DNA of 53,812 nt from assembly GCA_017466215.1 (NCBI GenBank), contig JAFTUO010000051.1:1-53812 (forward strand). Direction: 5' to 3'. This DNA comes from Oscillospiraceae bacterium (GTDB lineage Bacteria; Bacillota; Clostridia; Oscillospirales; Oscillospiraceae). Positions 2,878 to 9,137 of the stretch are shown piece by piece (positions within the stretch are counted from its first letter, which is position 1; every line of letters begins with the position of its first letter). The notes below the pieces were generated by a model. It saw nothing but the letters and a program-made list of their open reading frames with translations. It made no database searches and was not told the DNA's origin. The position numbers were made by a program, and so were the translations under genes.

Positions 2878-3279
2878 CTATAGACGTGCGAGATATATAT
2901 CAATGACTTGCTTGGCAAAGGAACCTGTGCCCTCGCCGCCAACTTTGTCTATGTTTTCCGTCATACTGCCACCACCGGCGTAGCTTTCTGCCAAGCTCCC
3001 CAGTATTTGGGGCGTGCAGGTGTAAAAATGCTCCGTGAAGAACACCTGCAGCTCCTTCGCCCAATTTTGTGCTGCTTCGCTGTCCGGTGCACAAGGGCGC
3101 ATCTTGCCCAGCTTTGCAAACAGCTCCATCACCTGTGCGCCCAGGTCTTTTTCCTGTTCCTTGGTGCGGCTTTTCTGCTTCTGTTCAAATTCCTTGTAGG
3201 CATCCGTCTTGCTGTAGAGCACCTTGGCCTGCTGGCTGTATTCGTCTAATTTCTTGGGGTCAAATCCTTCAAAATCCAT
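2878..3279 (-). pseudogene. TipAS-type effector domain, separated from its MerR half
   Basis: About 133 residues matching the TipAS antibiotic-recognition domain that forms the C-terminal half of TipA-type MerR regulators. The opening MDFEGFDPKKLDEY, the helix KEQEKDLGAQVMELFAKL and the end GSFAKQVIDIYLAR are typical. The DNA-binding half lies at 3578 to 3886, on the other side of a 273 bp inserted element. An AAGGAG site sits 8 bases before the ATG at 3279, so this half may still be translated alone, comparable to the separately made TipAS of Streptomyces lividans (established for that species; an inference here). It is more likely a broken gene than a designed split. Confidence 0.7.
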
Positions 3280-3299
3280 ATATTTCACTCCTTACTTAG

Positions 3300-3572
3300 G
3301 CTGAGAGGACTTGAACCTAAGCAGGTTTTCAGGCGGTTGCATTCCCCAATACATCAGAAAATCCCTTGATAATACACAAAGTATTGTCTGCGTGATTTTC
3401 TTCGTCTTGGAAAACGCAAACGGCTGAAAACTGCAAGGCACCTCTCAGTAAATAATTTTTGATTGATTTTTGGCGCAGATGACGCCGCCTTGCTGACGCA
3501 AGGCAAGGAAGATAAGGCAAAAAGCAGCAAAAAGAACTGCTGAGAGGCTGCTTAGGTTCGAATCCTCTCAGC
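3300..3572. mobile_element. MITE-like element, 273 bp
   Basis: A non-coding element with 25 bp terminal inverted repeats (3300 to 3324 and 3548 to 3572) that match at 23 of 25 positions, starting GCTGAGAGGA. It is flanked by a 5 bp direct duplication, CTTAG, at 3295 to 3299 and 3573 to 3577. It has no transposase and interrupts a TipA-like regulator gene. Its inner right end contains GGTTCGAATCC, the standard tRNA T-arm sequence, though the flanking bases do not complete a T stem. A transposase elsewhere in the genome would have to move it. Confidence 0.8.
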
Positions 3573-3886
3573 CTTAGCATTCCTCTTGCAAAACTGATTC
3601 GGTTTTGCAGTTTTTCTATGCGCTCCTGCATCAGCTTGATCTGGTGCTCCAGAACCCGGTTTCGGTCATAGTCCGGCGCGTCCAGAATGCTGCCGATCTC
3701 ATTCAGGGACAGGCCCAGCTCCCGATACACCAGGATCATATAAAGCTTGTCCAAAGCCCCGTCGTCATACAATCGATAGCCGGCATCCGTTATCTCGGTG
3801 GGTTTCAGCAATCCGATCTGATCGTAATGGTGCAGCGTCCGCACACTGACACCGGTGCGCTTGCTCACTTGCGCAACCGTCATCAT
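3329..3886 (-). pseudogene. MerR-family DNA-binding half of a TipA-like regulator, interrupted
   Basis: The native part (about 3578 to 3886) encodes a MerR winged-helix domain: MTVAQVSKRTGVSVRTLHHY, then IGLLKPTEI and a coiled-coil dimerisation helix with RVLEHQIKLMQERI. At RGMLRLRG it runs into the MITE and picks up about 80 unrelated residues before stopping at 3329. The preferred start is the ATG at 3886, behind AGGGGAGGG. The TipAS effector half lies beyond the insertion at 2878. A MerR-type promoter precedes the gene and looks intact. The truncated product could still bind DNA as a dimer but would have lost ligand sensing. Confidence 0.75.
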
Positions 3887-3908
3887 ACGCATCCCTCCCC
3901 TTGGCTCT

Positions 3909-3939
3909 ATCATATACTATGACGTTACGTTAGAGTCAA
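3909..3939 (-). promoter_or_regulatory. MerR-type promoter with 19 bp spacer and operator
   Basis: On the minus strand TTGACT is separated from TATGAT by 19 bases, the long spacing that MerR activators correct. The spacer carries a dyad around ACGTAACGT (3916 to 3936) with 8 of 10 arm positions matching. This is the expected autoregulatory site of the TipA-like gene. It overlaps the 3' end of the SLOG gene. Confidence 0.75.
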
Positions 3940-4371
3940 GAGGTTTTTTAGATTGATCACAAATTTCTTTTGACGCCTGGCTTTTTCGGCATACTTATAT
4001 GCGCCGCCCCAGGAGTGGGTGATGTAGGTGACCACGTACTCTGACTGCTGGAGCATCCAGTTGTTGCGCCAGGAGATGGCATAGTGTGGGTGAACAGACT
4101 CGATCCCCTCCGGGAGCATTGTGTCGGAATAGTCATCGTATTCCGTTTTCCTGCCGGGCATATAGGCCAGTACAACGGCGTAGTCGATCTTCGGAAATTC
4201 TTGTTTTAATTTCTTCAGCTCGCTGCGCACATAGGCATCAAACTGCCCCTGGTGTCCTACATAAAACATATCCACACCGTGGTTAGTTACCAGATCCACA
4301 AGTACCTCTCTTAACTTCGGTTTGATCGTCTCCGGACAATCCCGGTGACCAAAAAATGTACAATTCGCCAT
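3925..4371 (-). CDS. SLOG-type Rossmann-fold protein (DUF1273/YpsA-like)
   Basis: A 148-residue protein starting MANCTFFGHRDCPE, followed by HGVDMFYVGHQGQFDAYV and DYAVVLAYMPG. This Gly-rich Rossmann arrangement is that of the SLOG/DUF1273 group, whose members bind nucleotides or nucleotide-derived ligands and often sit near stress or defence genes. I use the ATG at 4371 rather than the upstream one at 4413, since a GGGTGAT ribosome site is spaced correctly for it and the longer form would run over the promoter. It is transcribed divergently from an XRE regulator and shares an inverted-repeat operator with it. Its substrate is unknown. Confidence 0.7.
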   Translation of the reverse strand: MANCTFFGHRDCPETIKPKLREVLVDLVTNHGVDMFYVGHQGQFDAYVRSELKKLKQEFPKIDYAVVLAYMPGRKTEYDDYSDTMLPEGIESVHPHYAISWRNNWMLQQSEYVVTYITHSWGGAYKYAEKARRQKKFVINLKNLLTLT

Positions 4372-4393
4372 AATATCACCCTTTATGCAAAAG

Positions 4394-4477
4394 TTGACCA
4401 GTATCACGGACAATATTTTGCATCAGTATAGCATAACATAATGGTAGTTTGCAACCAATACTGGTCAAGAATGCTAT
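4394..4477. promoter_or_regulatory. Divergent promoters and 11 bp inverted-repeat operator
   Basis: TTGACCAGTAT at 4394 to 4404 and its exact inverse ATACTGGTCAA at 4458 to 4468 flank the divergent start region. A palindromic TTGCAA at 4449 to 4454 can act as -35 for both genes: with TGCTAT (4472 to 4477, spacer 17) for the XRE gene, and with TATACT (4425 to 4430 on the minus strand, spacer 18) for the SLOG gene. One operator half lies inside the XRE promoter spacer and the other just downstream of the SLOG start. Confidence 0.65.
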
Positions 4478-4491
4478 ATGAGGTGTGAATT

Positions 4492-4737
4492 ATGGAACAG
4501 AAAATTCGTAGAGATCGCAATATGGGTGACAATCTGAGACGCCTGCGCAATGATGCCGGTTTGTCCCAAGAGAAGCTTTGCGCAGAACTGCAGCGTCGCG
4601 GCTGCGACATTGGCCGAACTACCTACGCAAAATACGAAGCCGGAGAACTAAATATACGAGCTAGTGTCATCATTGAACTGAAGAAAATCTACAAATGCTC
4701 CTATGATGAATTCTTTGTAGGTCTTGATATTCTATAA
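4492..4737 (+). CDS. XRE-family transcriptional regulator
   Basis: An 81-residue Cro/CI-type helix-turn-helix protein. The HTH is visible as NLRRLRNDAGLSQEKLCAEL, followed by TTYAKYEAGE and a third helix with IIELKKIYKCSYDEFF. It has no effector domain, so it is likely a simple repressor. GAGGTG precedes the ATG. It is the first gene of an AT-rich unit and is divergent from the SLOG gene, so the 11 bp inverted repeat between them is its probable operator. The next gene starts 134 bases downstream and may be controlled by the same protein. Confidence 0.85.
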   Translation: MEQKIRRDRNMGDNLRRLRNDAGLSQEKLCAELQRRGCDIGRTTYAKYEAGELNIRASVIIELKKIYKCSYDEFFVGLDIL

Positions 4738-4871
4738 GAACTGATGTAATTGTAGTTTTTCTCCTATAATTTAAAAACCAAACCTACAAAATGATTCCAT
4801 GATATCTCTGTCTCAGGATATCTCTTAATATGTGTCAAGTCCTTATTCTTTTGCACTTAGGAGGTCTATTA

Positions 4872-5495
4872 ATGGATAATATAGAGCACATTCATACTAT
4901 TGAGCAATTCAAAGCTTTCTTGGATGCGAACCAATTTGAATCAAAAATAGTTGATGACAAAGATTACGAAGGTAAACCATATCGGTATTTAGATATTCAG
5001 TTCCCTGTTGCTAGGAATACAGAAAATATCATAATTCATGAAGATGACGACTTAGATACTATTAGCAACTGTGGTTTTGTAAAATATAGAGGGATATCTG
5101 ATTACGAAGCTATTTGGTCTCAGGAATTGAACTGTATAGAATGTGAAGTTCAAGATACACAATCCTATGGTTTAGGACGATATATTATAAGGAATCTTGC
5201 TTCATATTTCGAAACCATTCAAGAAAGCACTGACGATCCTGACCGAAACGAGCCGATAGAATGTATCATTTTCTCCAATGACATATTGAAAGTTTCTGTA
5301 GGTAACTGCAGTAAAGAGTTTGCGTTTCTAAGTGCCTATAGGGATGGACGACATATAGATATTCGTCAACCAAGAGGGAGCTTTAGAACCACCTTAAAAA
5401 TCACAAATATTGCAATCAATACTGAGGAAAACGCTAGAACATTACTTGAAAAAAATATCAAATGCCCTATTTTTTCAGATAAATATTCTCTATAA
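4872..5495 (+). CDS. Uncharacterised acidic protein upstream of a HEPN-type gene
   Basis: I do not recognise this 207-residue protein. It starts at the ATG behind a strong AGGAGG site (MDNIEHIHTIEQFKAFL) and has no membrane segment or signal peptide. It is acidic, with a run EDDDLDT near residue 57 and mostly alternating strand patterns, suggesting an alpha/beta or beta-rich cytosolic protein. Its stop codon is one base before the start of the HEPN-type gene, so the two are almost certainly co-translated and probably functionally paired. Its AT-rich composition differs from the core genes. Its tight coupling suggests an antitoxin, sensor or activator of the HEPN protein, but this is inference only. 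Confidence 0.7.
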   Translation: MDNIEHIHTIEQFKAFLDANQFESKIVDDKDYEGKPYRYLDIQFPVARNTENIIIHEDDDLDTISNCGFVKYRGISDYEAIWSQELNCIECEVQDTQSYGLGRYIIRNLASYFETIQESTDDPDRNEPIECIIFSNDILKVSVGNCSKEFAFLSAYRDGRHIDIRQPRGSFRTTLKITNIAINTEENARTLLEKNIKCPIFSDKYSL

Positions 5496-5496
5496 C

Positions 5497-6195
5497 ATGT
5501 CAATCACACTCTCCCCACGCAGAATTCCGCGCACAGAAAAGATTATTCGACGCAGACGACTGCGTAATCCAACTTCAGAAAACCGACCCTTGAAATTGGA
5601 TTATGAATACGAAAAAACGCCAATGTCCTTATATTGGTTTGCGCAAAATAATATAGAATCTCCAATATTTGCTTTTTTTGCTTTTTATCAAGTTTTAGAA
5701 TACTATTTCCCTATTTACTCTCAACTGGAAGCAAAGAATAAGATTAAGAATTTATTTAAGGATCCGCGTTTTAGTATAGAATCAGATACCGATATGTTAC
5801 GTTTACTTAATGTAATTACTGCTAAGAATATAGATGGTATTGGAGACGAAAAAGAGCAACTCAACAATGTCCTTAAAAACATTGTTACTGGTGACGAGAT
5901 TATTGAGTATATCAATTCTCGGGGATTCTTGGTTGACTATTATAACAACAAAGCGTCCAACAAACTTTCAGGGGAGAAGTTGCCTCTTAATGACATTACC
6001 GGAATAGTCCCAAAGCTTTCCGCAAGAATATATGATATTCGTTGTCGAATAGTCCATAACAAGGCATCAGAAACACATAAGAAGATTCTTCCTGTAACAA
6101 AAGAAGAGGACTATTTGCGAAACGAAATTTCTGTCTTAAAATTTCTTGCCGAAAAAGCTATAATAACAAACAGCAAATCATTTCAATTTAAATAA
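5497..6195 (+). CDS. HEPN-domain-like protein, candidate RNase
   Basis: A 232-residue, basic-start protein (RRIPRTEKIIRRRRLRN) with a mainly helical body. FFAFYQVLEYYFPIY and the later IYDIRCRIVHNK fit the HEPN/ApeA-like pattern, and R182-x4-H187 matches the catalytic Rx4-6H motif of HEPN ribonucleases. It starts one base after the stop of the upstream gene, without a clear ribosome site, so it depends on translational coupling. HEPN proteins often act as toxins in abortive infection or toxin-antitoxin systems (family knowledge). No MNT-type nucleotidyltransferase antitoxin is present; the upstream unknown gene takes that position. The motif match is by eye and the assignment is moderate. Confidence 0.6.
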   Translation: MSITLSPRRIPRTEKIIRRRRLRNPTSENRPLKLDYEYEKTPMSLYWFAQNNIESPIFAFFAFYQVLEYYFPIYSQLEAKNKIKNLFKDPRFSIESDTDMLRLLNVITAKNIDGIGDEKEQLNNVLKNIVTGDEIIEYINSRGFLVDYYNNKASNKLSGEKLPLNDITGIVPKLSARIYDIRCRIVHNKASETHKKILPVTKEEDYLRNEISVLKFLAEKAIITNSKSFQFK

Positions 6196-6243: not shown

Positions 6244-6510
6244 TTATGGGGTATTTAGTTCTTGGGAAAGGCGGTGGGCGAGTTTGAGTCCATTTACAAA
6301 GCCGGATTGTTGGTGCAGGCGGCAGAGGTTACAGACCAAATCGATGATTGCGTCCTTCTCCTTTAGGGTTTTATCGGACAGGGCGTTATAGAGGTCATCA
6401 AAGGCCTCTTTGATCTCGTCGGTATCGTCGGTGCAGACGTGCTCGTAATAGGTATTGTACAGCAGCTCCAGGACGGTATCTGCATCGGGGCAGAGTTTCT
6501 TCATATTCAT
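6244..6510 (-). CDS. Small acidic protein of unknown function
   Basis: An 88-residue, all-helical, acidic protein (MNMKKLCPDADTVLELLYN). It resembles small uncharacterised clostridial proteins of about this length (DUF6809-like), but I am not certain of the family. Its ribosome site, GGAGG, lies inside the last codons of the Fic-like gene, and its start is only 3 bases beyond that gene's stop, so they form a pair. It could be a partner of the Fic-like protein, but such small proteins also occur next to many other genes. Confidence 0.65.
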   Translation of the reverse strand: MNMKKLCPDADTVLELLYNTYYEHVCTDDTDEIKEAFDDLYNALSDKTLKEKDAIIDLVCNLCRLHQQSGFVNGLKLAHRLSQELNTP

Positions 6511-6513
6511 AGC

Positions 6514-7452
6514 TCAGTCCTCCTTATAGTCGGTGGGAAGGTAAAGGCGGCTATGGGCGTAGAGTTTTTGAAGTTCGATTTGGGCTTCGAAGCGGTCCTG
6601 GGCTTCCATTACCACGTCCACCAGTTCGTATCGGTCGGTGTGCCACTCTTTGATGCCACGCAAGTATCTGGAGCGGCGCTTGTCGTCGATGATGAAGGGC
6701 ATAATGCCGTGGCGCAGGCATTCCTTAAACAGGATCAGTCTGCCAATACGACCATTACCATCCTCGAAGGGGAAGATCTCCTCGAAGCGGACGTGGAAGT
6801 CCAAAATGTGATTGTGCTCGATGTCGGACTGTTTTTCGTAGCCGGCGATCAGCTCTGCCAGACTGGAATGGATCTTGTCCGGGTGCAGGAGCTGGCGATC
6901 CCGGGGACGGGATGTAACTGTCCGATACTCACCGGGGCGAACCTGCTCCCGATACTCGTCCACCGTGCCGGTCATCAGAAGATGATGGAGCTTGCGGATG
7001 AACTTTTGGGTCAGGGGCTCCATCACATGATCTAAGATATAGTCCACGCAATGGATATGGTTCAGCACCTCAATCACATCGGAGACTTTGAACGGCTCAA
7101 AGGACTCCCGAACCTTGCCTTTTTTGAAGATGGTTTCCACCTGCTGACGGGTTAAACGGACGCTTGCCATCCGGGAAGAGGAGTAGGTCAGGTCAATTAC
7201 GGTGAAATCGTACAAACCGTGAAAATTCCGCTTTTTCTTCTGATTTTGCAACTTTTTGGCCAGTTCCGGCAACTCCACTTCCGATGTATGCTCCAAATCT
7301 GTCCGTGAGACACGGACTGCGTCTTCTGGGATCCTCCAAACGCCCTCTCTGTATACTGCTCCGGGGATTCTGTCCTGATTGCACAATCTCTTAATTAAGG
7401 TTATGGAAACGCCCCATTTTTCTGCCATTTCTCTGGTTGATAAATACTTCAT
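6514..7452 (-). CDS. Fic-fold protein with N-terminal HTH, catalytic His absent
   Basis: A 312-residue protein. Residues 1 to 45 form a small DNA-binding domain of the excisionase/MerR-like type (YLSTREMAEKWGVSITLIK, then VWRIPEDA). Residues 80 to 290 form a Fic domain with core motif FPFEDGNGR at 227 to 235. The canonical Fic motif is HPFx(D/E)GN(G/K)R, so the catalytic His is replaced by Phe227. The usual inhibitory S/T-x3-E-G/N motif reads SSRMAS here, so its Glu is missing as well. AMP transfer by the standard mechanism is therefore unlikely. The ATG at 7452 has AAAGGA 7 bases upstream. Tandem repeats just upstream could be its own operator. Confidence 0.8.
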   Translation of the reverse strand: MKYLSTREMAEKWGVSITLIKRLCNQDRIPGAVYREGVWRIPEDAVRVSRTDLEHTSEVELPELAKKLQNQKKKRNFHGLYDFTVIDLTYSSSRMASVRLTRQQVETIFKKGKVRESFEPFKVSDVIEVLNHIHCVDYILDHVMEPLTQKFIRKLHHLLMTGTVDEYREQVRPGEYRTVTSRPRDRQLLHPDKIHSSLAELIAGYEKQSDIEHNHILDFHVRFEEIFPFEDGNGRIGRLILFKECLRHGIMPFIIDDKRRSRYLRGIKEWHTDRYELVDVVMEAQDRFEAQIELQKLYAHSRLYLPTDYKED

Positions 7453-7476
7453 AGTTTCGTCCTTTCTTGTGCGAGT

Positions 7477-7512
7477 AGCCCGCAACACCTGCGTTACCCG
7501 CAACACTTTCAT
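7477..7512. repeat. Tandem 18 bp repeat upstream of the Fic-like gene
   Basis: Two units of 18 bp share the 10 bp core CCCGCAACAC (7479 to 7488 and 7497 to 7506). They lie in the leader of the Fic-like gene, a plausible site for binding by the HTH domain it encodes. Confidence 0.5.
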
Positions 7513-7598
7513 CTTGAATAAATCTTGAATTACGACGAAACACTGTATACCAACTGACACATAATGTATTTTTATTCGTGATTTTGGTGCTATTTAGT

Positions 7599-7862: not shown

Positions 7863-9080
7863 TTACCGTGCCAGGTTTTTAAGCATATTCTTCCAATCCT
7901 CTGCTGTCATATCGGTGGCGTTGGTGATAAAGGTTATACCCATATCTCTGGTGCGATTTAAGAAAGATAGCTCGGACTTTTCATTTTCCCTATTAAACGC
8001 GCTGGCGATCAGCACTTTTTTAACGTGTTTCCCGCCAAAGCGCTCCGCAACCGTCCACAGCTTATAGGGCTCGATCTCCTTGATCTCCCCTATTTTGCAG
8101 GATATGAAGATGGGCGTCAGGCCTCGCATCAGGATCACGTCGATCTCATTCTTGGTGTCGTTATAATGCCGGTCAACGCCGTCCCAATCAATATTGACAC
8201 CGATGTAGCAGCTGTTGAAATACGGCTTTCCGTTTTCCTGCAGATTTCTGGCCTCAAATAAGACCTTCATCTCCAAAACATCTCCGGGAGATTTCAGACA
8301 GCGCCGGACGACCGCATTTTTATAGGCATAGGACATACGGTTTGCCGTTATCCAAAGTCCTGTAACAACGCCTTTTTCTGCCAGAGCCCGCAGGAATTCC
8401 GTGCAGGCCTCCAGCTTTTGGCGGTAATTCAAGATCTCTCCGCCCAGGGCCGGAAGATCAATATTGATATGCATCTTGTCATAATCCGGCTCTGTCCGCT
8501 TTTCAAACTCCTTCAGGAATTTCACCGCGTCGTTCCAGGCATTCAGATCCGCACAAGCCATATTCCAAAGCAGGTCTACATCCCGCTTGTCTGTATTTGT
8601 GTCCGGCTGGGGGTTTTCGGGCACGACCACGCCGCCATACAGCGAAATCAGCTCCTCCACCGACACCTTGACCGTATCCCTGAAAGATACCGCATTATGG
8701 CAGTCGCAATCAATGATCTTTCCGTTTTTTAAGTCAAACCGCTGCAGCTTAAAGGGATATTCCTCCCGACAAGTGGCAAAAACGATGCCGCAGCCCAGGA
8801 TCAGCAGATCCTCGCCGCCGGTGATATCGAAAATGCAGTCCTTTTCGGTTTTGACAATATCCGTCAGAGTCTGCACAATGGCTTTCAGATCGAATCGGTC
8901 GATGCTTCTAAGCTCAATTTTGGTCTTATAGCCTTTGTTTTTCAAAAACCGCTCATAGACAGGGATAGTTTTCTTCATTTGCGCCGTATCGCCCAGGAAG
9001 ATGACCTTATCGGGCTTCGCGGTCAGGCAGCTGATCATATTTTCAAAGGGTGTTTTTTCAAAGAACTCAACAATGGTCAT
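7863..9080 (-). CDS. Card1-like CARF-domain nuclease (DUF1887)
   Basis: A 405-residue protein with a Rossmann-like CARF domain at the N-terminus, whose ligand loop DITGGED (85 to 91) matches the TGG motif of Card1/Can2 proteins. The C-terminal part has a PD-(D/E)xK nuclease core: NEIDVILMRG with D314, then ISCKIG with K329. In the family, cyclic oligoadenylate from type III CRISPR complexes binds the CARF domain and activates nicking or RNA cleavage. The ATG at 9080 is preceded by GAGGGG, and a sigma-A promoter lies upstream. No Cas genes or repeats are in the window, so its activating signal must come from elsewhere or from another cyclase. The family assignment rests on motifs and length. 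Confidence 0.75.
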   Translation of the reverse strand: MTIVEFFEKTPFENMISCLTAKPDKVIFLGDTAQMKKTIPVYERFLKNKGYKTKIELRSIDRFDLKAIVQTLTDIVKTEKDCIFDITGGEDLLILGCGIVFATCREEYPFKLQRFDLKNGKIIDCDCHNAVSFRDTVKVSVEELISLYGGVVVPENPQPDTNTDKRDVDLLWNMACADLNAWNDAVKFLKEFEKRTEPDYDKMHINIDLPALGGEILNYRQKLEACTEFLRALAEKGVVTGLWITANRMSYAYKNAVVRRCLKSPGDVLEMKVLFEARNLQENGKPYFNSCYIGVNIDWDGVDRHYNDTKNEIDVILMRGLTPIFISCKIGEIKEIEPYKLWTVAERFGGKHVKKVLIASAFNRENEKSELSFLNRTRDMGITFITNATDMTAEDWKNMLKNLAR

Positions 9081-9108
9081 ACATTTCCCCTCTTTTCCCA
9101 TTTTGATC

Positions 9109-9137
9109 ATTATACCACAAGAAAATACTTCTTTCAA
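9109..9137 (-). promoter_or_regulatory. Sigma-A promoter of the Card1-like gene
   Basis: TTGAAA, 17 bases, TATAAT on the minus strand. It gives the nuclease gene its own transcript with a short leader. Confidence 0.75.

Follow-up and report, generated by a model that had tools for sequence, protein, structure and literature searches.

Repressors that serve diverse defence operons are already known, among them the WYL-type BrxR/CapW, RptR and CapK/CapS, each described beside such operons (PMC9122588; PMC9122601; PMC12255303; PMC13373217); how costly defence genes are kept silent in bacteria, and how a new arrival is wired in, is still largely open. SLOG proteins have been proposed as sensors or processors of ADP-ribose derivatives and are found fused to HTH domains in phages (PMC9503650; PMC6459960), where the fusions were interpreted as signal-controlled (PMC9503650). 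Here we describe a locus at positions 3925-6195 of a 53,812-nucleotide stretch of DNA from an Oscillospiraceae bacterium (contig JAFTUO010000051.1 of assembly GCA_017466215.1; the whole stretch is referred to as the window), in which a SLOG gene and the gene of a small XRE-family DNA-binding protein point apart and a HEPN gene follows. As with BrxR/CapW, RptR and CapK/CapS, the regulator adjoins diverse defence genes; unlike them, it is a small XRE protein facing a SLOG gene, and its control of those genes is something we infer. The arrangement also differs from YpsA-type SLOG proteins and the phage SLOG-HTH fusions in that the SLOG is a separate gene facing the XRE gene. No account of such a SLOG-XRE pair was found in an open-access library that lacks most subscription papers. 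We put at about even the chance that the locus is a site of defence-gene exchange, in which a self-regulated SLOG-XRE pair stands before a slot that is filled here by a frame-broken HEPN gene. The features concerned are as follows.

3925-4374, minus strand: SLOG (YpsA-like) protein, 149 amino acids (aa), from ATG 4374 (Pfam YpsA and conserved residues)
4394-4404, no strand: left arm of an operator-like inverted repeat, TTGACCAGTAT (conservation in six relatives)
4458-4468, no strand: right arm of the operator-like inverted repeat, ATACTGGTCAA (conservation in six relatives)
4492-4737, plus strand: XRE-family DNA-binding protein, 81 aa, divergent from SLOG (HTH_3; PADLOC Control_protein)
4872-5495, plus strand: split HEPN gene, first half, N-terminal domain (alignment to the intact 443-aa homologue L015)
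5445-5458, plus strand: A-run region, frame change relative to intact relatives (comparison with intact copies)
5497-6195, plus strand: split HEPN gene, second half, predicted HEPN domain with Rx4H (L015 alignment, DzbB profile, motif)

The four open reading frames (ORFs) in this list lie where an earlier note on this DNA had called them. That note had described the block as AT-rich, which holds for the two halves of the HEPN gene (G+C 0.34 and 0.345, against 0.54 for 10000-53812) and less so for the SLOG and XRE genes (0.48 and 0.44). Its proposal that SLOG, XRE, an unrecognised protein and a HEPN protein form one four-gene system does not stand, as the pair and the HEPN gene occur independently; of the genus's 136 genomes, 67 have SLOG relatives and one has the HEPN gene, and the four loci with intact HEPN copies have no SLOG relative.

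The SLOG-XRE pair itself is genuine and recurs independently of the HEPN gene. The SLOG protein finds its nearest Pfam family in YpsA (PF06908; E 3.7e-5, 24.2 bits), a match below the gathering cut-off of 27.7 bits. Six residues, G8, H9, G39, G42, F44 and D45, are kept in 97-100% of 72 SLOG homologues and probably represent the region of the GxD/E motif predicted to bind nucleotide or substrate in YpsA (PMC6459960), with G42-x-F44-D45 being one residue longer than the published form. Its relatives reach up to nine matches in one genome of the genus, and at E ≤ 1e-15 they are found in 38 of 250 genomes of the family. The partner belongs to the XRE/Cro-CI proteins (Pfam HTH_3, 36.8 bits against a cut-off of 23). 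A divergent XRE-like ORF no more than 350 bp upstream of SLOG was found at 45 of the 46 loci from the genus and at 27 of the 28 from other genera, these loci being the better-scoring SLOG matches and no random sample, whilst the same test applied to the other genes of 40 of these stretches gave 3 of 206. The definition of upstream permits frame overlap, and 4 of the 45 ORFs and 2 of the 27 do run into the longest SLOG frame; the count of 46 omits two further loci (L100 and L101), each with a divergent XRE-like ORF. HTH_3 was matched at E ≤ 0.01 by 66 of these 72 divergent ORFs. At three loci of other genera (L161, L162 and L168), the genes behind SLOG include three to four small XRE-like ones in a row, belonging to several types.

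The partners do not travel strictly together. Among 53 SLOG pairs of at least 80% identity (the pairs are not independent), the accompanying XRE proteins were less than 45% identical in 35 and at least 70% identical in 15. Over all pairs, SLOG and XRE identity are correlated at 0.41, compared with at most 0.21 in 500 permutations; XRE swaps are thus frequent yet incomplete.

Within the 117 bases between the two genes lie TTGACCAGTAT and its mirror copy, with 53 bases separating them. Six relatives, two from other genera, share this XRE type; in them 21-22 of the 22 arm bases are identical, compared with 50-92 of the other 96 columns. As the arms are nearly unchanged with this XRE type while the surrounding columns vary, the paired TTGACCAGTAT sites are the likely place at which XRE binds its own divergent promoter. 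With other XRE types there are often distinct repeats, such as ACCCCTTTTG; some loci yielded none of 8 or more. The window's XRE type together with the conserved repeat also occurs without an adjoining SLOG in two genomes, G333 and G300 (loci L124, 10434-10778, and L125, 11533-11787); at L125 a 68-aa uncharacterised ORF stands opposite XRE.

The order MerR, SLOG, divergent XRE, a variable content, DUF6809 and Fic is common to eight species, the window's and seven others, and seven kinds of content occupy the slot amongst them. In all eight blocks at least one slot protein matches a PADLOC family at E ≤ 0.001, the families being DzbB, DRT3a/3b, Avs2, PDC-M11A, type II methylases, GHKL/REase II and NsnA/GmrSD_N. 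The window has the HEPN gene with its DzbB match in this position. The slot of G353 holds an N6/N4 methylase, a DndB/DpdB-like protein and, further on, Avs2; that of G357 a C5-type methylase and a GHKL protein matching REase_II; and those of G368 and G376 again a REase_II-matching GHKL protein, then two proteins of about 213 and 282 aa, which gave no clear match where scanned, in G368, and a C5-type methylase. G367 carries a C5 methylase, a protein of no recognised kind and GmrSD_N/NsnA, in a block cut by the contig end within MerR; G373 an unrecognised 321-aa protein, HNH_5 and PDC-M11A; and G389 DRT3b and DRT3a in the opposite direction, beside a decayed Fic. The cargo begins 134 bp behind XRE in the window; in six related blocks, those whose first gene is co-directional with XRE, the distance is 13-192 bp. 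Fic matches of at least 70% identity spanning the query lie inside such blocks in seven of nine cases. Genes in related loci were called by our own codon scores and not by a published caller, and slot neighbours were picked by eye; 30 were scanned with PADLOC (20 matching at E ≤ 0.001, 10 not) and 20 of these also with Pfam, the remaining neighbours being judged from their translations.

Parts of the block are also met elsewhere. Loci L155 and L156, of two other genera, have the pair near a Fic gene; at L155 nothing separates them and at L156 little does. DUF6809-Fic pairs lie by other accessory genes with no SLOG nearby at L113, L114, L115, L119 and L123, their neighbours including PDC-S41 (L113), a methylase and a GHKL/REase_II protein (L119) and PDC-M49A (L123); the neighbours scanned at L114 gave no match and those at L115 a weak match at most.

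The controller (C) proteins of restriction-modification (RM) systems are a further comparison for a small XRE protein at the head of such cargo. The window's XRE matches the PADLOC Control_protein model (E 7.1e-6), XRE directly precedes methylase genes in G353, G357 and G367, and operator-like sites are present. The arrangement differs from C proteins in being paired with SLOG and in standing also before non-RM cargo or none; the window's slot holds no restriction gene.

If the locus is indeed an exchange site, cargo would be replaced by recombination between the conserved borders. The rarity of the HEPN gene in the genus and its low G+C speak for this reading. XRE on the paired sites would likely hold down SLOG and itself from both divergent promoters, repression would reach the cargo directly behind XRE by read-through, and SLOG, by analogy, may read a signal of nucleotide type (an ADP-ribose derivative, for example) and then release or tune the switch. 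Intact relatives of the HEPN protein, as cargo, would cut RNA and stop the infected cell. A fuller and rather unlikely version would make SLOG-XRE a nucleotide-signal-gated switch before an exchangeable defence slot, placing incoming defence genes of many kinds under one sensor-repressor pair whose XRE and operator could be swapped as a unit. With the same borders, closely similar SLOGs, seven contents in eight species and interchangeable XRE-operator units, regulation and cargo can be tested separately.

The strongest competing explanation, to which we give a substantial but lesser chance than to the exchange site, is that SLOG-XRE is an autonomous two-gene element, either toxin-antitoxin-like or a small immune pair, sitting in a defence hotspot with the HEPN gene as an unrelated neighbour. 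Several observations weigh on its side and against a single system of switch and cargo. The nearest called gene behind XRE faces the opposite way in 39 of 65 loci (it is co-directional in 16 of 41 in the genus and 10 of 24 elsewhere, some of these being further XREs), and in other genera the pair is often flanked on its own by genes interpreted as housekeeping, as judged by eye from their translations; the pair may therefore be autonomous and the hotspot one of its addresses. The patchy distribution of SLOG, with up to nine matches in one genome, and the occurrence of XREs in tandem also fit such an element. However, an opposite-facing nearest gene does not exclude cargo, as G389 illustrates, every one of the eight blocks with these borders has a defence-family match in its slot, and XREs swap against near-identical SLOGs, unlike the partners of a cognate toxin-antitoxin pair.

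The earlier note had read 4872-5495 and 5497-6195 as two genes one base apart, a trap that the intact relatives correct: they are one broken gene. The intact 443-aa protein of L015 aligns by tblastn over both, residues 12-197 at 54% identity in one frame and 194-438 at 67% in the next, so that the two ORFs are one gene with a frame change inside it and the one-base gap is a by-product. With 5497-6195 as query, 12 relatives were found, and several of these sequences extend upstream into sequence resembling 4872-5495. In a scan of one genome per species, intact copies were present at four loci, each a single ORF of 438-450 aa, in two Clostridia metagenome-assembled genomes (from sheep and goat colon), Lacrimispora algidixylanolytica and Chitinophaga rhizophila. 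A profile built from these four copies matched 89 proteins, 85 of them new, and 81 of the 85 are single proteins of 410-476 aa, with two shorter and two longer. The window copy shifts frame within the A-run near 5450, a position at which the four intact relatives have no frame change.

The frame change may be a mutation or a sequence error. An error of sequencing or assembly, with an intact HEPN gene in the cell, is a real but less favoured prospect and is compatible with the exchange-site reading; the change falls in a homopolymer of a draft assembly with 93 contigs. Against it stands the protein cluster P0001, which comes from two other contigs and shares 96% identity with the second half; its called start is the same internal ATG, a hint of a real split. 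Unless the sequence is in error, the window copy would be inactive or poorly expressed. Another protein, P0006, shares an almost identical sequence with the second half of intact L016, its N-terminus differing from approximately the same junction onward.

It is very improbable that the two ORFs encode two genuine subunits of a HEPN system that works with SLOG and XRE, as the earlier note had it. The ATG of the second ORF does come right after the stop of the first, and P0001 starts at the same place; the prevalence of single full-length relatives, and the lack of a SLOG relative at all four intact loci, argue the other way, as does the lack of a Shine-Dalgarno-like sequence before ATG 5497. 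ATG 4872 is preceded by AGGAGG. Least probable of all is a programmed slip of ribosome or polymerase at the A-run giving a short and a full-length HEPN protein, since, although the A-run sits between the two domains, the four intact relatives are unshifted there and the slip is thus no family trait.

The gene belongs to an ApeA/DzbB-like family, whose predicted product is an RNA-cutting defence effector. The Rx4-6H motif that defines the HEPN superfamily (PMC3710099) reads RCRIVH in the window, in agreement with the Rx4H motif reported earlier, and a like motif is present in 92 of 97 family proteins; a fold comparison of the HEPN half turned up Csm6, LsoA and RnlA. The first half, reported earlier as unrecognised, indeed matches no family in any of four libraries, though it is not a gene of its own. 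The second half matches the PADLOC DzbB model (E 3.3e-12; residues 53-198 on profile positions 201-310 of 341), as do all seven relatives or fragments scanned. In contrast to a Dazbog protein, the match falls mainly in the HEPN half and not over the whole profile length; the cover is 171-331 in P0007 and 89-331 in one distant relative. The DUF262 domain of Dazbog sits in DzbA, the partner of DzbB. Dazbog is described as containing this domain (PMC10952713), and among nine window proteins between 1662 and 9137 Pfam found no match to DUF262/GmrSD_N and hence no such partner. The same nine proteins include no adjacent MNT nucleotidyltransferase of the kind expected of a HEPN-MNT toxin-antitoxin system. 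The family resembles ApeA-like HEPN proteins and MauJ (PF17419) in having an N-terminal domain followed by a C-terminal HEPN domain in one protein; UniRef gives one member the name 'Apea-like HEPN domain-containing protein', nine of the 89 profile matches carry a precomputed MauJ assignment, and one distant relative lies above the MauJ cut-off (33.5 bits). The window half falls under it (20.3 against 28 bits), and Pfam scans of the window proteins and relatives found no ApeA model.

The border genes and the neighbour to their right are the following.

3329-3913, minus strand: MerR-family ORF, N-terminal part, left block border (MerR Pfam; C-terminal part 2878-3288)
6244-6510, minus strand: DUF6809-like protein, right slot border (Pfam DUF6809, E 0.0014, below cut-off)
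6514-7560, minus strand: Fic protein with HTH_17 domain, right block border (Pfam Fic, E 3.2e-12; PADLOC PDC-S04, E 1.8e-74)
7863-9137, minus strand: CARF-PD(D/E)XK nuclease, right of the Fic gene (PADLOC, E 1.8e-33)

The CARF nuclease and the degenerate Fic protein reported earlier are both present. A canonical Fic motif starts with H; in the window IFPFEDGNGRIGR stands at this place, and the catalytic histidine thus appears to have been lost. Fic is 87-96% identical in six other block-bearing species and a fragment in G389, and the DUF6809-like protein is 90-91% identical in five related blocks and 57-63% in G353 and G389. MerR is 85-94% identical in the seven related blocks, over just 48 residues in G367 because the contig ends there. 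In the related blocks its ORFs are uninterrupted, at about 243-253 aa. In the window the gene is interrupted at 3295-3577 by an insert resembling a miniature inverted-repeat transposable element, with 38-nt terminal inverted repeats (84%); contig C92 of this genome carries a second copy (74%).
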